From assembly GCA_030595125.1 (NCBI GenBank), contig JAUVDV010000018.1, positions 1 through 64,000 on the forward strand: a stretch of DNA of 64,000 bases, written 5' to 3'. Below are positions 31,130 through 42,063 of the stretch, piece after piece; position 1 is the stretch's first letter, and each line of letters opens with the position of its first letter. The stretch is from Deltaproteobacteria bacterium. GTDB lineage: Bacteria > Myxococcota_A > Polyangia > JAAYKL01. The notes beneath the pieces are model-generated. The model saw nothing but the letters and a program-made list of their open reading frames with translations. It made no database searches and was not told the DNA's origin. A program made the position numbers and the translations under genes.

Positions 31130-33721
31130 ATGAAAACATTGAAGATTATTTTTGCAGCGTGTGCCGTTACGCTGATCCTCGGATGCGGAAGATCTGACAT
31201 CGTAGACTCGTACACAGCGCCCACCGGCCCGGAGTCTTCCGACGAAATCTGTGATGGTCTGGACAATAATCTGAACGGCACAGTAGACGAACCATTCCTC
31301 GACGAGAACGGGCTGTACCTGCACGTGGATCATTGCGGCGCGTGTGAAAACCCGTGCGTCGCCGACGACGTTACGGTTTCCCTGGATTGCGGACTCCTGC
31401 ACTGGGCTCCCCAGTGTCTGGCGACCTCCTGTATCGAGGGCTACACGGTTTCCAACTCGCAGACATGCGTAAACCGCGGCGAGCGCCTCTGTCGCAGCTG
31501 CCTCGAAGACCAGGAATGCGGCGACTTCGACGACGCCCTTTGCGCCAATATCGGCGGCGAGCCCAGGTGCACCCTGTCCTGTTCGACCGAGGCGTGTCCA
31601 ACAAGCTACACCTGCAATGAGGACAAGATATGCGTCCCGCCATCCGGGATATGCCAGTGCACGCCCGGCGACACCTTCTTCATGTTCTGCGAGATCCCGG
31701 TGGGCACGGAGATCTGCTATGGAACAGCCTGGTGCGATGACGGCATGATGGGCGCCTGTGAGGGAAGCGATGAGATCTGCGACGCCCAGGACAACGACTG
31801 CAACGGCATCGTTGACGATCCCTTCGTAAACACTCTCGGCATGTACGGAGTCGACATCTACAATTGCGGTGGATGCGGTATCGACTGCACCCTGAATCCA
31901 CTTCCCGTGGGAGATCTGATATGCGGCGGTCCGGCGACCGATCCCCTTTGCGCAATGCTCTGCGTGGACATTCTCGACGGGCTACATGTTGGAGATCACA
32001 TGGACGCCGACCTGCAGATCGCCACAGGCTGCGAATGCATACTCCAATCCCTCTTCGATAACCCGGGCCCGGCGATGGCTTCACCGACAGACGTTGATCC
32101 CAACTGTGACGGCGCGGACGGTATCGTGGCGCAGAGCTTCTACGTCACTCCCGGCGGCGACGACACGGCACCCGGCTCCCACCTGAACCCCATGGAAACA
32201 ATTCAGGCCGCCGTCGACGCCGCCTACGCCTCACTGTCCACGGTTAGCCCGAGACCACACGTCTTCGTGGCGGCCGGCTCGTACGAGGAAGTACTCACCC
32301 TTCGGGAGGGGGTAAAGATACATGGCGGCTACGCCCCCGATTACCTCACCCTGGATCCGAACTCCTTCGTGACAGAAGTCCACACGCCATCGTGGGTCTC
32401 GGCACCTGGCGGCGCCGCTCTGGTAGCGGATGGAATCGGCATTTCAGATGACACGTCTGTGGATGGAATCTATTTCAGGGGCGCCTCGGCGCCCGGCCCG
32501 GGGCTGCCCTCTTTTGGAGCCTACCTGTTGAACTGCGGCAGTTTGCTATCGATCACCCATTCGATTTTCGAGGCAGGTGAAGGGGTGGACGGTATCGACG
32601 GCACGAACGGAACAAGCGGAACATCTCCTGCAGGCACGGGTACTGTGGGCGACCTTCCACGGGAGGCTATTGAAAACTCCTCTCACAACTGCACATCTAC
32701 CGCCGCCAATACAGTTCACGGCGGCGCCGGGCAATCCTTGACCTGTGGCAGCATTGTGGTGAGCGGAGGAAATGGCGGAGACAGCTCTTGCCCCGGCAAC
32801 CCCACTACCACTCAACCGGACGGCCAGGACGGGAACGGCCCTTCCTCGACACCCGGAGGTGACGGCGGCAGCGGCGGATGGAACGCGCGCGGGCCCATGC
32901 TCCCGTCGGAAGGCTGCCCCATATCCGCTTGTTGCGGACTGGCGCATTTCATAGTGTCGGGTGACTACGAAGTCGCCGGCGATGGCGAGCCCGGGCTCCC
33001 GGGACAAGACGGCATCGGTGGCTCAGGATGTACCAGCCCGCTGGGATTGCTTCAGGCATCCCTCTGGTCCCCTGGATTGGGCTACGACGGAACCAACGGC
33101 GCTCCCGGCTCCGGGGGTGGCGGTGGTGGCGCGGGCGGTGGCGCGTTGTTCGAGTGGACTCCACCGGATTGCGAATACGTCGATGGGCTTGGCGGTGGCG
33201 GCGGTGGCGGTGGCGCCGGTGGTTGCACGGGAACGGCGGGTCAGTCCGGAACTTCGGGGGGACCGTCCATCGGGATAGTGATCTCCCTGGGCGGAACGAC
33301 TCCCTTGCCGACTCAGGCGCCCATCATTCAGAATGTGGTCGTCCGCACCGGCGACGGCGGTGACGGCGGCAACGGTGGAGTTGGCGGCAGCGGCGGAACG
33401 GGAGGCCCCGGTGGGGCGGGCGGCAGTCTCGCTCCGCAAGATCAATCCATCCCCCCCCTGGCGGGATCTTCGTCCGGCGGTCACGGCGGTCACGGTGGTT
33501 CGGGCGGCGGCGGCGGGGGCGGCGGCGGAAGTTGTGGAGGCTCGACTGTCGGGTTCTGGCTGGACGTGGATTCATCGGGATATCCGGGCGCGGCGGCAGC
33601 GTATCAATTCTATAACACCTTCTACCTTGGAACCTCCGGCGACGGCGGCGACGGCGGGGGCGGAAGCACCATGGGGTATGACGGTGCCGACGGGGAGGCG
33701 CACAATGTCTATCAAATGTAG
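31130..33721 (+). CDS. Gly-rich surface lipoprotein with MopE-like motifs (paralogue 1)
   Basis: 863 residues. The start at 31130 gives a short lipoprotein signal, MKTLKIIFAACAVTLILGC. Two MopE-like metal-binding motifs, DEICDGLDNNLNGTVDEPF and EICDAQDNDCNGIVDDPF, flank Cys-rich segments. Residues of about 345-480 resemble the start of DUF1565/pectin-lyase-like beta-helix proteins: FYVTPGGDDTAPGSHLNPMETIQAAVDAA, then VFVAAGSYEEVLTLREGVKIHGGY. The last 350 residues are GG-rich repeats (GGDGGxGG, GGGGGGAGG), superficially like PGRS domains. A sister gene with the same architecture begins before this stop (17-bp overlap). Function unknown; surface location is inferred. Confidence 0.8.
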   Translation: MKTLKIIFAACAVTLILGCGRSDIVDSYTAPTGPESSDEICDGLDNNLNGTVDEPFLDENGLYLHVDHCGACENPCVADDVTVSLDCGLLHWAPQCLATSCIEGYTVSNSQTCVNRGERLCRSCLEDQECGDFDDALCANIGGEPRCTLSCSTEACPTSYTCNEDKICVPPSGICQCTPGDTFFMFCEIPVGTEICYGTAWCDDGMMGACEGSDEICDAQDNDCNGIVDDPFVNTLGMYGVDIYNCGGCGIDCTLNPLPVGDLICGGPATDPLCAMLCVDILDGLHVGDHMDADLQIATGCECILQSLFDNPGPAMASPTDVDPNCDGADGIVAQSFYVTPGGDDTAPGSHLNPMETIQAAVDAAYASLSTVSPRPHVFVAAGSYEEVLTLREGVKIHGGYAPDYLTLDPNSFVTEVHTPSWVSAPGGAALVADGIGISDDTSVDGIYFRGASAPGPGLPSFGAYLLNCGSLLSITHSIFEAGEGVDGIDGTNGTSGTSPAGTGTVGDLPREAIENSSHNCTSTAANTVHGGAGQSLTCGSIVVSGGNGGDSSCPGNPTTTQPDGQDGNGPSSTPGGDGGSGGWNARGPMLPSEGCPISACCGLAHFIVSGDYEVAGDGEPGLPGQDGIGGSGCTSPLGLLQASLWSPGLGYDGTNGAPGSGGGGGGAGGGALFEWTPPDCEYVDGLGGGGGGGGAGGCTGTAGQSGTSGGPSIGIVISLGGTTPLPTQAPIIQNVVVRTGDGGDGGNGGVGGSGGTGGPGGAGGSLAPQDQSIPPLAGSSSGGHGGHGGSGGGGGGGGGSCGGSTVGFWLDVDSSGYPGAAAAYQFYNTFYLGTSGDGGDGGGGSTMGYDGADGEAHNVYQM

Positions 33722-36293
33722 ACCACTCCCCGTTCTTGCAATCGGCCTCTTTACGTTGATCGCGGCCTTCTCTCTTGTCGGATGTCATGAGAGCGCGGGG
33801 GGAACCGACGAGATCTGCAACTACACGGACGACAACTGGGACGGCATCGTCGACGATCCATTCGTGGACGCCCTGGGACGATATATTTCCGTGATGCACT
33901 GCGGTGATTGCGGGGTTAACTGTGCCGAGGTCTTCCCTCTCGCCACTGCGGTAGAATGCTTCGTTCCGGAATCCTCGGACTCAAAACCTTTGTGCCGCAT
34001 TACGGACTGTCCCGACGGCACTCACCTGGTCGGTTCGGCCTGCGTGCAGGACGAGGGACTCCTTTGCCTGCCCTGCGAAACCGATAACGACTGCGCCATA
34101 GCCGATCCCGGAGCACTGTGCGTCACTCTTCCAAACGGCGACACCCGTTGCGGTACACCCTGCGATCTCGGCGACGACCAGTGTCTTGCCGGTTTCGAGT
34201 GTACGGAGCCTGGAAACACTCCACAGTGCACTCCCATCAGCGGGAGTTGCGCGTGTACGCCCGAGCACGAGGGACAGGTCTTCGGGTGCTGGATCGACAG
34301 CCCGGACGGCGAAACCGCCTGCCCGGGCCGGCAGATCTGCGAGGGAACCAGCTTGACCGAATGTGAACCGGTCCTCGAGGACATCTGTGACGGCAAGGAT
34401 AACGACTGCAACGGAACGATCGATGATGATTTCCTTACGGGCGACCTCTACATCGATGACGACCACTGCGGCGCGTGTAATCACCCGTGCGTCCCGCCGG
34501 CGGCCAACATGGAATCACACTGCATCTACGATGGAAGCTCTCCGGGCTGTGTTTTTAGTTGTCTCTTCGGTTTCGTCGATCTGGATGGAGTATCTCTGAA
34601 CGGCTGCGAATGCGAAATGACTGCGGGCTCCTGGCCTCCCACCGCCCACGGAGGAGACGGAAACTGCGACGGCACCCTGGATGACATGAGTACGTACATT
34701 TACGTATCCAAAAACGGAAACGACGGCAATCCGGGCACCCTGGCCGCCCCCGTGCTCACTATCGGCCAGGGTATCGTGCTCGCCGCACCCACGGGAAAGA
34801 CCGTCTTCGTCGCTCAGGGCGTGTACGACGAGGATGTCCATCTTTCTCCGGGAGTCTCACTCTTTGGAGGATACAACGCGGATTTCTCCGATCGCGATAC
34901 CGTGATCTTCCCGGTCGTGTTGACCAACACATCCGCCACGACGGGACACCCGGTTCTCTACGCAAACGGAATCCAGACGTCGACGGAGGTAGCCGGATTC
35001 GACATAGAGGGCACAAACGCAGCATCCCCCGGAGCCGGATCCACAACAGTACTCATCAAGAACTGCGGTCCCGATCTGTTCATCTGGGATCTCACTGTGA
35101 TCGCCGGACAGAGCGCGGATGGAATTGATGGAGATTCATCGGCGGAGATCCTCGCCGACATGGGTATCCCCTCGCCTGCTCAGCTGGACGGCACGTCCGG
35201 CACCAATGGGGCCGGCGGGTTTGACGCCAATACCATCTATTGCTTCGGGCAATTTGCTAACGGGGGCAACGGCGGCAACAAGACATGCCCGGTCTCCATG
35301 GCAAATGTCGGCGGAGGATACGGAGGTGATTCCTCCTGTCCCAACACCGGCTGTTCAATCGGATCTCCATGCGGAAACGCCGGCTGTAGCGACTACATGG
35401 TCGGCAGTGTTTGCGACTACGCGGCTGTGTACGCGGCAGCCGTGCCGAATCCGGCCGCAGGTAACGGCTTCGGACCCGGCGCGGGCTCAGGTGGCGACCT
35501 GACCTACGACGCGCCGACGACCATGCCCGGGATCAGTTTCTGTGACGACAACCCCACCCTCAGGCGTGAGGGCGGTCCGGGAGGAAACGGCGCGGGTGGC
35601 ACCAGCGGCGCGGGCGGAATCGGATTCACGGATCCCGACGGGTACTTCAATATCTTGACGGGTATCTGGACCGCAGGAGACGGCACGGACGGTGGAGATG
35701 GTACCAACGGAGGAGGAGGTGGCGGTGGCACGCAGGGCAACGGCTACGACATGCTCCCGGGGGTGGGCGGCTTCTATGACGATCACCTCGGCGGCGCCGG
35801 CGGGGGCGGAGGATCAGGCGGATGCGGACCTCCGGCGGCAACCGGCGGAACCGGCGGTGGAAGCTCTATAGGAATAGTGATCGTTCTCACCTCCTCCAAT
35901 ACGGGTCCTGTCTTCGATCAGGTTCGCATCGTTCCGGCAGGCGCCGGTGACGGTGGGAACGGCGGCATCGGGCTCGCCGGAGGCACACCTGGTACCGGAG
36001 GTCTGGGCGGGGACGGCAATTTCTGGTGCGCCAGGCACGGGGGCAAGGGAGGAGACGGCGGAAGCGGTGGAGCCGCCGGCGGAGGCGGTGGTGGCGCCGG
36101 TGGATCGATCTCCGGCTTCCACGTCATCCCGGGAGCCCCCGCAACACCTGTCGCCTACATGCTCGCTCTGACGGCCGCCAACAGCGTCGATCCCCTCCCC
36201 GCGCCCGGCAGCGCGGGCGCCACCGGATACTCACCCGGCAATTCCGGATCGGCGGGAGTAGCAGGAACCGCACTGGCATTCAGGATCTACTGA
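33705..36293 (+). CDS. Gly-rich surface lipoprotein with MopE-like motifs (paralogue 2)
   Basis: 862 residues from ATG 33705, which has GGGGAGG six bases upstream and overlaps the previous gene by 17 bp; the frame is open further upstream but only as the shadow of paralogue 1. Lipobox LVGC after MSIKCRPLPVLAIGLFTLI. Domain order repeats paralogue 1: NYTDDNWDGIVDDPFVDALG, Cys-rich region, ICDGKDNDCNGTIDDDF, then IYVSKNGNDGNPGTLAAPVLTIGQGI and VFVAQGVYDEDVHLSPGVSLFGGY, then GG-rich repeats. The final segment, ATGYSPGNSGSAGVAGTALAFRIY, recurs as a fragment at 37281-37379, showing there was once a third copy nearby. Confidence 0.8.
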   Translation: MSIKCRPLPVLAIGLFTLIAAFSLVGCHESAGGTDEICNYTDDNWDGIVDDPFVDALGRYISVMHCGDCGVNCAEVFPLATAVECFVPESSDSKPLCRITDCPDGTHLVGSACVQDEGLLCLPCETDNDCAIADPGALCVTLPNGDTRCGTPCDLGDDQCLAGFECTEPGNTPQCTPISGSCACTPEHEGQVFGCWIDSPDGETACPGRQICEGTSLTECEPVLEDICDGKDNDCNGTIDDDFLTGDLYIDDDHCGACNHPCVPPAANMESHCIYDGSSPGCVFSCLFGFVDLDGVSLNGCECEMTAGSWPPTAHGGDGNCDGTLDDMSTYIYVSKNGNDGNPGTLAAPVLTIGQGIVLAAPTGKTVFVAQGVYDEDVHLSPGVSLFGGYNADFSDRDTVIFPVVLTNTSATTGHPVLYANGIQTSTEVAGFDIEGTNAASPGAGSTTVLIKNCGPDLFIWDLTVIAGQSADGIDGDSSAEILADMGIPSPAQLDGTSGTNGAGGFDANTIYCFGQFANGGNGGNKTCPVSMANVGGGYGGDSSCPNTGCSIGSPCGNAGCSDYMVGSVCDYAAVYAAAVPNPAAGNGFGPGAGSGGDLTYDAPTTMPGISFCDDNPTLRREGGPGGNGAGGTSGAGGIGFTDPDGYFNILTGIWTAGDGTDGGDGTNGGGGGGGTQGNGYDMLPGVGGFYDDHLGGAGGGGGSGGCGPPAATGGTGGGSSIGIVIVLTSSNTGPVFDQVRIVPAGAGDGGNGGIGLAGGTPGTGGLGGDGNFWCARHGGKGGDGGSGGAAGGGGGGAGGSISGFHVIPGAPATPVAYMLALTAANSVDPLPAPGSAGATGYSPGNSGSAGVAGTALAFRIY

Positions 36294-36308
36294 GGGTTTT
36301 TAGTCGGG
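36217..36308 (+). repeat. 92-bp repeat, copy 1 (end of paralogue 2)
   Basis: Covers the last 25 codons of paralogue 2 and 15 bp after its stop. It matches 37303-37394 with only a few third-position differences and no gaps. The two copies are in the same orientation and enclose the methyltransferase gene. Confidence 0.85.
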
Positions 36309-36348
36309 TTTCGTCCACAGAGGCAGAATCAATTGATTCGTCCAAAAT

Positions 36349-37227
36349 TTAACCTGTGCCCGCTTTTTTAAGCACGCAATGCGGATACTCACCGCCTTCT
36401 TCGTCACTCATGTAAAGCACATCAAACCCCGCGTCCTCAGCGAGCTTTCGAATCTCCGCGTTGCTGAATTGGTGACCAAAACCGATGTGAGTGAAAAACC
36501 TGTCGTTGATTTCGTTGCCACAGGCGCGACGCAAAGTGGTCTTTGATATATCGAATACCCGGCGCGACGCCGACCTTGAACCTGTTGATTGTTGGGGGGA
36601 TCCAAAATAGCTGGCAAGCATACATCCCCCTGGTGTGAGCATCCTGTAACACTCGGCAAACAGTAATTGCCTATCTCGCGCATTGCGAACATGGGTCAGG
36701 CTTCCCCATCCCAGCAAAATGGTATCGAAAATCCCCAGACTCGATGAGTGTGGTAGTTGCGGCACAGCACAGGCCGGGAGAGCGTTAGGCTCCTCCCTAC
36801 CGATGAACTGCTCATAACCGCCAGCATAAACTTTCATGTCGAATTCACGCTCTCGCGCTTGACGAAACATCTGCTCAACCAGGTGCACAGCCGGTTCAAA
36901 AGCAGTTACGCTATAACCTCGACGACAAAGATCAAACGCCTCGCGACCACCGCCCGCTCCGCCTATGAGCACACGAGCAGGTGCCGGTGGAAAGTACTTC
37001 TCGATGGCATCGATCTCCCACTTGAATAATCGTTCACGAAAACTGGAAGAAAGCGGAGCATAAGACCGCGACCTGCTGTATGCGACCTCATTGTACGCTC
37101 GAAAGAACGCGTCGTTTCCCAGCAGCAAGAGCAGTTCTTCCCGAGTTCGAAGGTAAAGATCCCACAACTTGTCGGCGCGATTCATCCGATAGCAGATCTT
37201 CGCAAGGTAGTGAGGTATTCTTGACAT
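36349..37227 (-). CDS. Class I SAM-dependent methyltransferase
   Basis: 292 residues from ATG 37227 (no strong ribosome-binding site; ATG 37185 is an alternative). The SAM-binding motif I is ARVLIGGAGGGREAFDLCRRG, followed by a motif II-like acidic end, YSVTAFEP. FDTILLGWGSLTHVRNARDRQLLFAECYRMLTPGGCMLASYF corresponds to motifs post-I to IV, and the C-terminus has ELAEDAGFDVLYM-like sequence. The target could be small molecule, peptide or protein. It lies in the same direction as the RiPP operon, 138 bp beyond the peptidase stop, but is boxed between two 92-bp repeats, so membership of the operon is uncertain. Confidence 0.78.
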   Translation of the reverse strand: MSRIPHYLAKICYRMNRADKLWDLYLRTREELLLLLGNDAFFRAYNEVAYSRSRSYAPLSSSFRERLFKWEIDAIEKYFPPAPARVLIGGAGGGREAFDLCRRGYSVTAFEPAVHLVEQMFRQAREREFDMKVYAGGYEQFIGREEPNALPACAVPQLPHSSSLGIFDTILLGWGSLTHVRNARDRQLLFAECYRMLTPGGCMLASYFGSPQQSTGSRSASRRVFDISKTTLRRACGNEINDRFFTHIGFGHQFSNAEIRKLAEDAGFDVLYMSDEEGGEYPHCVLKKAGTG

Positions 37228-37280
37228 TTCAATACGGTTATCAAATTGGGAGGCTTTGCTCAATTTCAAAACTACCCAGA

Positions 37281-37379
37281 GGCAATGGGGGAGACGGAAG
37301 CGGCGCCACCGGATACTCACCCGGCAATTCCGGATCGGCAGGAGTAGCAGGAACCGCGCTGGCGTTCAGGATCTACTGA
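37281..37379 (+). pseudogene. 3' fragment of a third Gly-rich lipoprotein gene
   Basis: In frame, the bases encode GNGGDGSGATGYSPGNSGSA followed by GVAGTALAFRIY and a stop, the C-terminus of paralogue 2. Nothing upstream continues the gene: the sequence before 37281 belongs to the methyltransferase leader. Silent differences from copy 1 show it is an old paralogue rather than a fresh duplication. Confidence 0.75.
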
Positions 37380-37394
37380 GGGTTTTTAGTCGGG
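37303..37394 (+). repeat. 92-bp repeat, copy 2
   Basis: Direct copy of 36217-36308. Its right end runs into the antisense 3' end of the signal-peptidase-like gene, which takes its last nine codons and stop from it. Confidence 0.85.
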
Positions 37395-37851
37395 ATCCCG
37401 CCACAATAACCAGCCTTGCCGCCCTTGCAGCCGTTCTCACCAGCTGCGGCGTGAAGAGAGTCAACCGAGCCACTCCCTTCCCGACGGTGCTGTCAGTCTC
37501 GTACGAAAACGGACCAACGGAAACCCGCGCCACGACACCAAGGACGGCCTCCGGCTCAACGAGCTCACACCCATCGAGAGCGTCTCCGCGTATTTCCAGC
37601 AGACGTTTCCCGTCGCGCAGTTTAAACCCGACTATCCTGTGCGCCACGAACTTCGAGTCCGTACCGAGGTAACAAACGATCTCCCCGATCCCCAACTCGT
37701 TCTCTTTACTAATCTCTTTAAGGTGCAACCTGCTCCCGGGCGGGACAAAGGGCAACATTGAGGAGCCAGCGGTTCTCCACTCCTCATCCAGTGTCGATGA
37801 CTCCTCGACACACGGACGGAAGTACTCAGCCATCATCACCGCCGTCTTCAC
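37366..37851 (-). CDS. Soluble S24/S26 signal-peptidase-like protein (Ser-His type)
   Basis: 161 residues from GTG 37851 (GAGG seven bases upstream). The box TAGSSMLPFVPPGSRLHL carries the nucleophile Ser31 of the S-M-x-P motif. In bacterial SPase I the general base is Lys, but here the second box reads KFVAHRIVGF (67-76), with His71 as in SipW/Sec11 (ER-type) enzymes. LEIRGDALDG is a third family box. Unusually there is no membrane helix. The last residues, SRLKTLSRS, come from the antisense of the 92-bp repeat, so the native C-terminus (possibly a membrane anchor) may be missing. It overlaps the radical SAM gene by 26 bp; leader removal from the modified peptide is a plausible job. Confidence 0.75.
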   Translation of the reverse strand: MKTAVMMAEYFRPCVEESSTLDEEWRTAGSSMLPFVPPGSRLHLKEISKENELGIGEIVCYLGTDSKFVAHRIVGFKLRDGKRLLEIRGDALDGCELVEPEAVLGVVARVSVGPFSYETDSTVGKGVARLTLFTPQLVRTAARAARLVIVAGSRLKTLSRS

Positions 37852-38905
37852 GCCATATCCTCGCGTGAGCGCGGGCCACCTCGCAGTCCACCGTTGCCGC
37901 TGCGGTGAAAGAACCGTGTTCCTTGAATGCCTCGCCCGGACATCGCTGGCAAAATCGATTGTCCTCGCAGGTCATGCATTTCTCCGAATCGCCCCATGTG
38001 AGCCCGATGACTTGCTTTCGGAGTTCGGATTCAGTCCAGATTTCATAAAGAGAACGATCGCGAATATTGCCCAGAGAAACGGGCATTGCCGGACACAGCC
38101 AGACCTCGCCGGTAGGCTTTATGTACACCGACGTGATTCCCGCCAGACACAGCTGGTCGCCCGGTCCCTTGACAGGCCTTCGCTGCCTGGCGTTGGGAAG
38201 GTTTTTCATCGCCTCCAGCTGAGTGTCCCCCGAGGCCCTCAGGCCCACCACGGCATCACCTCCATCATCGGCAAGAAGCACCTTCGCGTCGGCAACAAGG
38301 TTCCATCCTCTTTCCTCGCACATGTTCTTGAGCGGAGCGATCGCGCCGGTGTTCCAGTCCATGATCACCGTACTCATATTGGATATCCCGCCAATATCGC
38401 TGAAGGTCTCCAGCGCAGACATCGCACGTCTCCAGGCGCCTTTCCGACCGACGAACTCGTCATGCTTTTCGGGTTCAATGTGGTACAGGCTTACAGACAA
38501 GCTGGAAAGCCCGTTCTCCCTTAACTTTATTATGTCCTGCTTGTTCAAAAGCGCCGCAGTTGTCTTCAGCGAAACAAGAAACTTTCGCTTCCACGCAGCC
38601 TCTACTATCTGATGCAAATCATCTCGCAATGCGGGTTCTCCGCCGGTAATCGAGAAGCGAAAAACGCCCAGAGCGGCAAGCTGATCCAGGAGATCCTCTA
38701 TCTCTTCAAAATCCAGTTCCCCTCTACCTGTTCGTTCGGTTTGATAGCAGTGGGCGCATTTCATGCAGCAGCGCTCGGTAGCGCAGAACAACGCTATCAG
38801 CGGAAAATCCGACTCGTCCTGAAGACGCTCCCAGAAGGATCCGGGCCTTACCTCGCAATCACTCACTTGCTCAATAGTAGTCGCGTCTCTGGGTTTGATA
38901 ACCAA
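37826..38905 (-). CDS. Radical SAM/SPASM peptide-modifying enzyme
   Basis: 359 residues from TTG 38905, five bases after the PqqD gene, with AGGA upstream. The radical SAM cluster motif is C46-x3-C50-x2-C53 (CCMKCAHC); FSITGGEPALRDDL is the SAM-binding GGEP block. The C-terminal SPASM region shows Cys groups LCLAGITSVYIKPTGEVWLCP and CMTCEDNRFCQRCPGEAF that would hold auxiliary [4Fe-4S] clusters. Such enzymes install thioether or carbon-carbon crosslinks in ribosomal peptides. Neighbours are a PqqD-like protein and a Cys-containing small peptide, the usual partners. The exact crosslink cannot be read from sequence. Confidence 0.92.
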   Translation of the reverse strand: MVIKPRDATTIEQVSDCEVRPGSFWERLQDESDFPLIALFCATERCCMKCAHCYQTERTGRGELDFEEIEDLLDQLAALGVFRFSITGGEPALRDDLHQIVEAAWKRKFLVSLKTTAALLNKQDIIKLRENGLSSLSVSLYHIEPEKHDEFVGRKGAWRRAMSALETFSDIGGISNMSTVIMDWNTGAIAPLKNMCEERGWNLVADAKVLLADDGGDAVVGLRASGDTQLEAMKNLPNARQRRPVKGPGDQLCLAGITSVYIKPTGEVWLCPAMPVSLGNIRDRSLYEIWTESELRKQVIGLTWGDSEKCMTCEDNRFCQRCPGEAFKEHGSFTAAATVDCEVARAHARIWREDGGDDG

Positions 38906-38910
38906 TTCCG

Positions 38911-39195
38911 TTATTCCTGATTCTGTTGCTCGACCAATCCTCGCTTTTTCATATCCTCCAGGAAATCGCGCACATCTGACAGCGCTTCCTCTTGCGACAC
39001 GTCGAATACCTCTCGAACATGGGCCGCCACTTCATTGATATCCCGACCATCGAGACACGACCATATCTCGGAGCCAGTCTCGTTGAGCTTGAGAATATTG
39101 TTGTCTTCGATGTTCACCAGAACGAAACGCTCACCGATCTTTCGGTAGGCCACCCGCGGGTTTGGTATATACACGGTCGAATCCTCTCGTTTCAT
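38911..39195 (-). CDS. PqqD-like peptide recognition element (RRE)
   Basis: 94 residues with GGGGAG six bases before ATG 39195. The sequence NPRVAYRKIGERFVLVNIEDNNILKLNETGSEIWSCLDG and VRDFLEDMKKRGLVE is the PqqD winged-helix fold: a three-strand sheet then helices, with L-N-x-T-G-x-x-I-W as the hallmark. PqqD proteins bind leader peptides and present them to radical SAM enzymes. It sits between the kinase and the radical SAM gene in one operon with 12-bp and 5-bp gaps. Confidence 0.93.
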   Translation of the reverse strand: MKREDSTVYIPNPRVAYRKIGERFVLVNIEDNNILKLNETGSEIWSCLDGRDINEVAAHVREVFDVSQEEALSDVRDFLEDMKKRGLVEQQNQE

Positions 39196-39207
39196 CCGTC
39201 ACTCCCC

Positions 39208-40041
39208 TTATAATAGCGCCTCTTCAATGAGAGGCCAGAAGCGATCGTTCTTTTCAAACTTGAGACTGTAGGAAAGATCGAGATCGACCAACTTGCCGAT
39301 AGCCTCCATGGTGCGATTCACGGAAACAGCGCTGCGGGAAAAGGTAATTGTCTGACCGAGTATGCTTCTGGTGGCCTCCCACGAAGTCATTGAAAGAACT
39401 CGGTGTTCATCAGCCTGTTCAATGAAAAAAATGCCCGACAACTGAGCCCGATCGGTCTTCAATACTGAACGATCCCGATCACCAAGAGGCGTAGAGTACG
39501 CAATCGCCATGCCGCCCGGATCAAATGCAATGAGTGTCTTGTCTACGCTCAGAACGTCTTTCCCTTCACTCAACTCCTCGACGATGGTCGTCTTTCCCGC
39601 TCCGCCCGGACCCGAAAAGAGAACTGCCCTGCCATCCTTCAAAACAGCGGAAGAATGGACAAGCAAGTTTCCGCTCTCCTCGCACACAAAAGACAGACCC
39701 ATGCTGACTGCCCCATCAATGACCTCAGGAGTGTCTCCGTTCAGCCTGAAACGCCCTTCAAAACCGTTGTCGACGCGCTCAATGACGCCGCTCGCAACCA
39801 CCTTGTCCACAAGAACTCTCTGGACTGTTCCGTCCCTTTCCTCGAATCTCACGTCTTTTTCCCGATCCTCATTCATCCAACCCGGCTCGAGATTCAACTC
39901 CAGCCGCAGATCGGGAGGACGAGAAGACCCATCTGCTACCAGATGAGAGTCTACGTACGAACCCCACTTTGTGCTGATCGTCTCCGAACCGGTGACGAGT
40001 ATTTCTAGCTCGTAATCACCGATTCGTAGCGTGTACTTCAT
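39208..40041 (-). CDS. HPr kinase-like peptide kinase
   Basis: 277 residues. The C-terminal half is HprK-like: LLVHSSAVLKDGRAVLFSGP then GGAGKTT (Walker A, GPGGAGKTT, 144-152), DVLSVDKTLIAF as the acidic strand, and GDRD after it. The N-terminal 110 residues have no obvious match. HprK-like proteins next to PqqD genes occur in RiPP loci; in paeninodin-type lasso clusters (PadeK, ThcoK) they phosphorylate the C-terminal Ser of the precursor. The precursor gene here ends in Ser and lies 36 bp upstream. Related HprK-like proteins are also part of the SynChlorMet-type radical SAM cassette, so the substrate remains inference. Confidence 0.8.
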   Translation of the reverse strand: MKYTLRIGDYELEILVTGSETISTKWGSYVDSHLVADGSSRPPDLRLELNLEPGWMNEDREKDVRFEERDGTVQRVLVDKVVASGVIERVDNGFEGRFRLNGDTPEVIDGAVSMGLSFVCEESGNLLVHSSAVLKDGRAVLFSGPGGAGKTTIVEELSEGKDVLSVDKTLIAFDPGGMAIAYSTPLGDRDRSVLKTDRAQLSGIFFIEQADEHRVLSMTSWEATRSILGQTITFSRSAVSVNRTMEAIGKLVDLDLSYSLKFEKNDRFWPLIEEALL

Positions 40042-40077
40042 TGGAATGTAGTGTTTATAATAAGAAAGGGAACCGAT

Positions 40078-40257
40078 CTAACTACCAGTGGGTGCACCCG
40101 CGCACAAGTCGGGGCCACCCGATTTCAAACCGCAAGTGAGAACCACGCATGTCTTGTATAGTTCCTCTTCGGCGATGGCCGGTTTCTCATATGGCCTCTT
40201 CTCGCTCGCGCCCAACGAACCGTTGCCGTGTTCTCTCATTGTTATATTTTTTTTCAT
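40078..40257 (-). CDS. RiPP precursor peptide with YxxPxI leader and three-Cys core
   Basis: 59 residues from ATG 40257 (GGAG six bases upstream). The leader, residues 1-36, is hydrophilic and contains KRPYEKPAIAEEEL; Y23-x-x-P26-x-I28 resembles the YxxPxL motif that lasso and related leaders use to bind PqqD-type recognition elements. The probable core begins around residue 37 and has Cys37, Cys42 and Cys52 in CVVLTCGLKSGGPDLC, then AGAPTGS, ending in Ser59. It is first in the operon, followed by kinase, PqqD, radical SAM and peptidase genes. No Gly-Gly leader cleavage site and no signal peptide. Identification as a precursor rests on size, Cys pattern, leader motif and context. Confidence 0.8.
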   Translation of the reverse strand: MKKNITMREHGNGSLGASEKRPYEKPAIAEEELYKTCVVLTCGLKSGGPDLCAGAPTGS

Positions 40258-40353
40258 CTCATTCTCCACACGCAAGATGAACCAAACTGTTACATTAGTC
40301 GCAGTAGATGTCCATTGCGTTCATAAATCAATACGATCCAGAATAACTATCAC

Positions 40354-42063
40354 TCACGGCGCCCAGGTCATGCCGGTCGGACAGGTTGAGAATACTCCCG
40401 AAGGAGCAGTATCCGAAGTGCCCAAGGGGTTGCACCTGAAATACCCGGTCAACGGCGGTTGATCCGTGATATTGATCCACCCGCACTCCATGCCATATAC
40501 GGCGCAATCGAGATCCATTGGGGCTCCAAAAGCTGCCGTGTGCAGCATGGTTCCCTCGCAACAGCCATGCAGGAGATCGTCGTAGTACTCCGCACAGGTT
40601 CCCCATTGATATTCTTCACACACATGGGTGGTACCGAGTCCCGGGCAAAGGGAATCACAGTTGATAGTGCCGCTGCACCCGTCATCCCAGGTACCGCAGG
40701 TGTTGCCGAGATAAGCACATGTGTCGCACCCGGGCCCCGTGGAGGCAATATTAAGATCGTATGAGTTTCGCACAAAGGCTCCCGCCCCTCGTATCTCCAC
40801 GAGATATCTACCGGCTTCTCCCGATGCCACGGTATGGGTCAGGCTCTCGTTATCGTTCGAGCTGTAGCTATAGGCCCTGCTCTGATCCCAGGACGGCGTG
40901 GAGTCGTACAGATACCAGAGATACAAATCGACATCACCATCCGAAGAATGGGTAAAGGTTACCGACACATCAATGACATCGGTCTCGGCCAGATATATAG
41001 CAAACCAATCCTTATCGGACCCGCAAAGAGCAAGGCCGCTCGCCGAGAAATCATCGGACAACAGATGTGCAATTGAATCGTAATCGTTCTCTTCGTAGGC
41101 ATCCTCGGTGCAAACATCGCAGGAGACTACACCCTCCCACCCGGTGTCACAATCGCAGTACGCCACGCCGGTTTCGTCGCAGGTGCCGTGGTCTCCGCAG
41201 TCAACTCCCCACAGGGTGCAGCCCATATCGCAGGTGGCTCCGTGGTCGTTGAAGCCGGTGACGCACTCGCAGTGCGGCAGCGTGGTGTTGGCGGCGGTAC
41301 ACGTGCAAATCGCATACCCTCCGACCACCGCACAGGTGCCGTGTCCGTTGCATGGATCAGGAGTGCAGGTTTCGTCTACTACACAGGAGCCTCCATCCTC
41401 ATGGTAGCCCGATGCGCAGGTGTAGCAGAACGTTGCGGGATCCCAGTTGCCGGTGCATGTGCAGCTGACCACACCGCCGGTGTCGCTGCACGTGCCTCCG
41501 TTGGCGCAAGACGTGGACGAGCACACCTGATCGATAACGCAACTCCCTGCGTCATTGTGAAAACCCGGAGCGCAACCATCGCATAGATCGCCACCCCAAC
41601 CGGTTTCGCAGGCGCATTGCGCCTCGCCAAGAACCACACTGCAGGTTCCGTGGTCGCAAGGATCGGGGGTGCAGGTCTCGTCCATGACACAATCCGAACC
41701 GCTTGCATGGTAACCCGTGTCGCACTCGTTGCAGTAGTCACCGTCGTATCCGGTGTCGCAGGTGCACATTATCCCCCCGTCGGCATCGACACATGTTCCG
41801 TGGTCCCCACACGGATCGATATCCTCGCAGCTCAAGCTCGTATCGGTGTCCGTGTCGGTGTCCGTGTCGGTGTCGGTATCCGAATCGGTGTCGGTATCGG
41901 TGTCCGAATCGGTGTCCGTGTCAGTGTCCGCGTCGGTGTCCGCGTCGGTGTCCGTGCTGGTCGAACCATCCGGTGGATCCGCCGGCATTGACGAACTACA
42001 ACCGAAAAGCATAACCATTGCCAACAATCCCAAAAGGAACGTACTCAAAAAACGGTCGTTCAT
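40354..42063 (-). CDS. Lipoprotein with Thr-Asp linker, EGF-like repeats and PPC-like domain
   Basis: 569 residues with AGGTG five bases before ATG 42063. Signal peptide ends in lipobox LFGC; then about 50 residues of TDTDAD/SDTD repeats. Residues of about 80-330 are at least five EGF-like modules (C-x-x-x-x-C ... HGTC ... C-x-C-x-x-G), with DPCGDHGTCVDADGG and DPCNGHGTCAVVGG the clearest. Residues of about 335-440 look like a bacterial pre-peptidase C-terminal domain (EENDYDSIAHLL, DKDWFAIYLAETDVIDVSV, YLVEIRG). The C-terminus is Cys-rich with no family I recognise. Outer-surface location is expected. It lies upstream of the RiPP operon, same strand, 96 bp from the precursor start, and is probably unrelated in function. 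Confidence 0.82.
   Translation of the reverse strand: MNDRFLSTFLLGLLAMVMLFGCSSSMPADPPDGSTSTDTDADTDADTDTDTDSDTDTDTDSDTDTDTDTDTDTDTSLSCEDIDPCGDHGTCVDADGGIMCTCDTGYDGDYCNECDTGYHASGSDCVMDETCTPDPCDHGTCSVVLGEAQCACETGWGGDLCDGCAPGFHNDAGSCVIDQVCSSTSCANGGTCSDTGGVVSCTCTGNWDPATFCYTCASGYHEDGGSCVVDETCTPDPCNGHGTCAVVGGYAICTCTAANTTLPHCECVTGFNDHGATCDMGCTLWGVDCGDHGTCDETGVAYCDCDTGWEGVVSCDVCTEDAYEENDYDSIAHLLSDDFSASGLALCGSDKDWFAIYLAETDVIDVSVTFTHSSDGDVDLYLWYLYDSTPSWDQSRAYSYSSNDNESLTHTVASGEAGRYLVEIRGAGAFVRNSYDLNIASTGPGCDTCAYLGNTCGTWDDGCSGTINCDSLCPGLGTTHVCEEYQWGTCAEYYDDLLHGCCEGTMLHTAAFGAPMDLDCAVYGMECGWINITDQPPLTGYFRCNPLGTSDTAPSGVFSTCPTGMTWAP

Follow-up and report, generated by a model that had tools for sequence, protein, structure and literature searches.

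A compact bacterial gene cassette predicted to mature a cysteine-containing peptide, with a recurrent surface lipoprotein gene upstream

A 64,000-nucleotide stretch of a Deltaproteobacteria bacterium genome (class Polyangia; contig JAUVDV010000018.1 of assembly GCA_030595125.1), hereafter the window, carries five minus-strand open reading frames (ORFs) in one tight run, which encode a small precursor peptide, an HprK-like kinase, a PqqD protein, a radical S-adenosylmethionine (rSAM) enzyme with a SPASM region and a signal-peptidase-like protein of the S26 type. Gene linkage, homology, conserved residues and phylogeny, all directly observed, support the assignment of this run as a maturation operon for a ribosomally synthesized and post-translationally modified peptide (RiPP). 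The product is predicted to be a cysteine-containing peptide that is very likely modified by the rSAM enzyme, probably phosphorylated on its last serine, and trimmed by the signal-peptidase-like enzyme. On balance, the pathway appears to serve one small peptide and to be dedicated to a large surface lipoprotein encoded upstream.

The five genes are separated by 36, 12 and 5 bp, and the last two overlap by 26 bp, as described in an initial annotation made from the sequence alone; no transporter was found beside the operon, again as claimed. The motif-based identities given there are borne out for the PqqD, Radical_SAM and SPASM parts, which match Pfam strongly, while the kinase and the S26 protein match weakly by sequence and were placed by structure and profile searches. 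The RiPP interpretation also stands: a conserved leader and a cysteine-containing core lie beside a RiPP recognition element (RRE) protein and a modifying enzyme. That annotation overlooked the phylum-wide spread of the set, the terminal serine that predicts the role of the kinase, and the recurrent upstream surface lipoprotein. The boundary that it drew (37366-40257) is too narrow, as the lipoprotein gene is probably part of the set.

The leader of the window precursor carries PYEKPAIAEEELY, and the predicted core, CGLKSGGPDLCAGAPTGS, contains two cysteines and a C-terminal serine (the sequence ends TGS). Pro26, which lies in a YxxPx leader motif, Cys42 and Cys52 are invariant across 14 aligned precursor homologues. 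Two or three core cysteines occur in each of the 15 precursors of the window's type; the first and second are spaced 6-11 residues apart, and the last is mostly followed by 6-9 residues. The cores are strongly different between precursor families, and no curated precursor model covers these peptides in the library scans made.

The kinase was searched for in 14 genomes of the window's taxonomic family and is present in ten, including all eight of the good ones; one of the ten (G006) has a second, diverged type only. The eight other relatives with a full kinase gene all carry the precursor, kinase, PqqD and rSAM genes in the window's order, with 25-41% identity to the window's cassette. The S26 gene is next in seven of the eight and missing beside the cassette in G013; in G010 it lies ~1.2 kb further along. 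The initial annotation had proposed a search for co-occurrence and named the absence of precursor homologues beside the gene set in relatives as contrary evidence; homologues adjoin the set in every one of the nine family genomes that have a full kinase gene. Chance association is rejected because the same gene order recurs in the eight other family genomes and the set is found across many genomes. Wherever family contigs reach far enough, the cassettes lie mostly at one place, after the ATP synthase genes (atpC was identified by eye in several loci), which indicates vertical inheritance. The precursor profile yielded nine strong matches in the family genomes, every one in a cassette, and no strong match outside the cassettes. 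Scanned against 379 genomes of the phylum, it matched 60, about one in six, and iterated profiles gathered 80 distinct precursor loci; in all, more than 60 phylum genomes contain relatives of the set. At least one cassette enzyme adjoins 77 of these 80 precursors, and a kinase lies within ~7 kb in 72.

Several diverged cassettes were also seen. The window's genome has a second one (L038, on contig C154 of G000) that comprises PqqD, rSAM, precursor, kinase and S26 genes, with counterparts in relatives (L039-L044); these precursors often end in GS and have conserved ALMGxCK-type cores. A third precursor type (L084, L085, L089) has the highly conserved core PDNCKMDxxxGGFGGxxGxCxQSSxPTVMCxNIGS, and the rSAM ORFs upstream of it end in Cys/Gly-rich tails. 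An additional precursor ending in PKS, accompanied by PqqD and rSAM genes, lies ~27 kb from the main cassette on contig C289 of G007 (L102/L206), and a kinase was not found nearby.

The rSAM enzyme contains a CxxxCxxC motif (Cys46, Cys50 and Cys53) that is invariant in the family, and the family alignment reveals seven invariant cysteines in the SPASM region (253, 271, 310, 313, 319, 322 and 341). The best solved relatives of its profile are SkfB, PqqE and the entry 5v1q, which we take to be SuiB; the best NCBIfam match is NirJ2, far below the cut-off. A quick, midpoint-rooted tree was calculated with 13 true PqqE sequences and 30 NirJ2-profile hits, sactipeptide maturases being absent from it. 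Seventy cassette enzymes are split from PqqE and the NirJ2-like sequences by a branch with 99% SH-aLRT (approximate likelihood ratio) support, and the sole "cassette" row outside this clade is a gene that neighbours a cassette without belonging to it. The window enzyme falls in a 10-row family clade (99%), itself nested in a 45-row branch (81%) to which most of the loci having a large lipoprotein upstream belong. A heme-type (NirJ2) identity is rejected by this split, and PqqE identity by the separate clade and a score of 97 bits against a cut-off of 381; the grouping with a non-peptide clade that the initial annotation had envisaged as a refutation was not seen. The cysteine cluster, the SPASM cysteines and the nearest relatives, which are peptide maturases, point to an enzyme of the radical SAM/SPASM peptide maturase type. 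Since PqqE and the mycofactocin maturase are among the profile matches, and PqqD, a radical SAM/SPASM enzyme and vertical inheritance come together here, a redox cofactor similar to pyrroloquinoline quinone (PQQ) or mycofactocin, for which the peptide would be consumed, was considered; it is highly improbable, as the cores vary and have no conserved redox-active residue pair, the invariant residues are cysteines and, mostly, a terminal serine, and further cofactor enzymes were not recognised.

The kinase carries a Walker A motif (GPGGAGKT), an upstream His129 and the aspartate of LSVDK, and the P-loop is retained in the cassette kinases found. An AlphaFold model, built with nine homologues and having a pLDDT confidence score of 90, was submitted to Foldseek, which matched it to phosphoenolpyruvate carboxykinase (PEPCK; ~350 alignment columns) and HprK; a profile search also matched PEPCK. 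As modelled, the kinase belongs to the HprK/PEPCK fold. HprK-homologue kinases of lasso peptide clusters phosphorylate exactly the C-terminal serine (PMC8498205), and the terminal serine of the precursor therefore leads us to predict C-terminal phosphorylation as the role of the cassette kinase. Ser or Thr occurs within the last two residues of 68 of the 80 precursors, compared with 27% of background ORFs, and is the final residue in 59, fractions that are perhaps somewhat inflated because the profiles were built partly from Ser/Thr-ending precursors. Loci without a kinase, which would be expected to lack the terminal serine, do not discriminate: five of the eight without a detected kinase still have Ser/Thr-ending precursors, several of these loci being cut by contig ends.

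The PqqD protein is a predicted leader-binding chaperone, and the S26 protein a predicted leader peptidase. The latter has Ser31 (GSSM), His71 (VAHR) and a conserved GD; Gly29, Met32, Pro34, Ala70, His71, Arg72, Gly89 and Asp90 are invariant in the family. Profile searches, which match human SEC11A/C, and a weak fold match place it in the SEC11/signal peptidase I family. Full-score copies in the family are confined to these cassettes, and weaker matches are found mostly in the second cassettes. In two loci (L032 and L035) the presumed catalytic serine is replaced by cysteine (GCM, ECM); LAAGC precursors, FG-GAP lipoproteins and, downstream, a methyltransferase resembling protein arginine methyltransferases (PRMT-like) are further features of both loci.

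Upstream of the window precursor lies a gene for a protein with a signal peptide and lipobox (LFGC), a Thr-Asp linker and EGF-like repeats. Seven of the eight family relatives have an EGF or FG-GAP lipoprotein (FG-GAP in two) in this position. A large upstream ORF, defined as at least 550 aa on the same strand and ending at most 150 bp upstream of the precursor, is present in 45 of the 80 precursor loci (573-2641 aa). The 5' end is complete in 39, of which 31 match a strict lipobox pattern, and a lipobox was seen by eye in nearly all the remaining complete ORFs. Counted over all fetched loci, unique ORFs that have a lipobox and are at least 700 aa long number 38, and 31 of them adjoin a precursor. 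All seven Pfam-scanned proteins of the large lipoprotein type contain FG-GAP repeats, often together with immunoglobulin-like domains. The pairing persists while the enzymes move: the gene order is lipoprotein-precursor-kinase-rSAM-S26 in family f36 and kinase/PqqD-rSAM-lipoprotein-precursor, mostly followed by S26, in f3, f8 and f10, whose lipoprotein gene is enclosed by the cassette, with the rSAM gene on one side and the precursor gene on the other. The window lipoprotein is a probable sixth cassette component, the positional equivalent of the FG-GAP lipoproteins elsewhere. In four f8 loci (L077-L080) a class I methyltransferase-like ORF, possibly responsible for an extra modification, lies between PqqD and kinase.

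This recurrent linkage could also mean that the true substrate of the rSAM enzyme, the kinase and the S26 protein is the lipoprotein or some other protein and not the product of the small ORF. Such a scheme is very unlikely, because the small ORF remains next to the enzymes in cassettes that have no lipoprotein, the leader carries a motif of the type bound by PqqD-like proteins, and the modification enzymes are predicted to be cytosolic, unlike the exported lipoprotein. A natural product or signal that is secreted free, with the lipoprotein merely co-regulated or acting as its receptor, is possible but doubtful. It would follow standard RiPP logic and accords with the divergence of cores among families and with the second cassettes (L038-L044), which have no large upstream ORF. 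Yet no transporter or immunity gene was recognised near the window's set, the genomic place is near-fixed within the family, the f36 core is conserved across genera, unlike that of most weapons, and lipoprotein and precursor stay paired despite the changing enzyme order.

Several observations weigh against a peptide that is phosphorylated, trimmed at its first core cysteine and dedicated to the lipoprotein. The kinase target is not universal: at nine loci the kinase is intact, yet neither of the precursor's final two residues is Ser or Thr. By the (-3,-1) pattern, 13 of 15 precursors could be cut before the first core cysteine, but 14 of 15 could also be cut after it. A large ORF is missing directly upstream at about 35 loci, one of them the second cassette of the window's genome, and G013, of the same genus, lacks the upstream lipoprotein. 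The window partner is an EGF rather than an FG-GAP protein, and the genome encodes at least 47 paralogues of its N-terminal type, which weakens its candidacy as a unique partner.

The favoured pathway, dedicated to the lipoprotein, can be outlined from sequence comparisons as follows. PqqD would bind the leader (RPYEKPAIAEEE) and hand the peptide over to the radical SAM/SPASM enzyme for modification of the core, with one or two thioether crosslinks the likeliest outcome because two core cysteines are invariant. The HprK-like kinase would phosphorylate the hydroxyl of the C-terminal Ser/Thr, and the S26-type Ser/His peptidase would cut off the leader near the first core cysteine, leaving a mature peptide of ~18 residues (CGLKSGGPDLCAGAPTGS in the window). 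After its presumed export, this peptide may then act with the surface lipoprotein, or as its small subunit or ligand. A fully specified product, in which the peptide is crosslinked by the rSAM enzyme, phosphorylated at its C-terminus and used as a small subunit or ligand by a large surface lipoprotein of the FG-GAP propeller or EGF type, is put forward only tentatively.

Table 1 Features of the window operon and its flanks.
Feature	Position	Strand	Basis
Large surface lipoprotein, 569 aa, EGF type	40354..42063	-	EGF Pfam hits; probable sixth component
Precursor peptide, 59 aa, ATG with GGAG upstream	40078..40257	-	Homologues at same place in 8/8 family relatives
HprK/PEPCK-fold kinase	39208..40041	-	AlphaFold, Foldseek, profile match, P-loop
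PqqD-family RRE protein	38911..39195	-	PF05402 6.5e-21
Radical SAM/SPASM maturase, TTG start	37826..38905	-	PF04055 (Radical_SAM) 3.8e-20, PF13186 (SPASM) 6e-10
S26 signal-peptidase-like protein, no transmembrane anchor	37366..37851	-	TIGR02228 8e-7 (below cut-off), SEC11A/C profile matches
Class I methyltransferase, ATG start ~37227	36349..37227	-	Methyltransf_25 1.8e-6; uncertain, lineage-specific accessory

The methyltransferase gene downstream of the operon matches the daptide methyltransferase model weakly and has no homologue in the family loci by tblastn, and it was rejected as a core component. A 104-nt direct repeat (93% identical) occurs at 36216-36319 and 37302-37405, on either side of this gene; the second copy holds the S26 stop codon and a 3'-end remnant of the Gly-rich ORF 33333-36293. 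The arrangement resembles a cassette-style duplication or insertion.

Among known systems, SynChlorMet (ScmA-ScmF), to which the initial annotation had likened the set, also brings together HprK-like, PqqD-like and radical SAM/SPASM proteins. It has two radical SAM proteins where the window cassette has one and, to our knowledge, its model set includes no S26 peptidase and no lipoprotein. Membership is rejected because the ScmC, ScmD, ScmE and ScmF models score 37, 33, 57 and 54 bits, far below their cut-offs of 125, 100, 400 and 400 (the kinase matches ScmC at 1.8e-9). The lasso clusters with kinases (paeninodin, ThcoK, SyanK) share an HprK-homologue kinase and a PqqD-like B1 protein, and their precursors resemble those of the cassette in the C-terminal serine only (PMC8498205). 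Neither a lasso cyclase (Asn-synthetase-like) nor a B2 protease was found by Pfam or NCBIfam among the window genes from 36349 to 42063; the cassette has an rSAM enzyme and an S26 peptidase instead. The sactipeptide and ranthipeptide maturases (SkfB, CteB, AlbA) have the radical SAM/SPASM fold and a cysteine-containing precursor in common with the cassette, which differs in its additional HprK-like kinase, separate S26 peptidase and surface lipoprotein, and in which no dedicated exporter was seen. The cassette enzymes form a clade of their own relative to PqqE and the NirJ2-like enzymes, a comparison that sactipeptide maturases stand outside.

The set, for which the initial annotation knew of no exact counterpart, is not unique but occurs widely across the phylum. 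The combination of an rSAM enzyme, predicted C-terminal phosphorylation and an S26 leader peptidase was not found in the searchable open-licence papers, nor was the lipoprotein-precursor link. This is weak evidence of novelty, because the searchable literature is limited to such papers. The cassette defines a large RiPP family beyond the curated precursor models scanned.

The closest working analogy for the proposed pairing of peptide and lipoprotein is the quinohemoprotein amine dehydrogenase (QHNDH), in which the radical SAM enzyme QhpD crosslinks the small leader-bearing subunit QhpC (gamma), the serine protease QhpE removes the QhpC leader, and QhpC joins larger exported subunits (PMC7876137). 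The systems differ in that QhpE is subtilisin-like, QhpF is an ABC exporter and the operon is without an HprK-like kinase or S26 protein; no QhpA/QhpB-like Pfam match was obtained among the window's cassette genes. The recurrent coupling to a surface lipoprotein suggests that RiPP enzymes may, as in QHNDH, contribute to the making of surface proteins instead of producing secreted antibiotics. If so, RiPP-decorated surface proteins would form a class that extends across the phylum.

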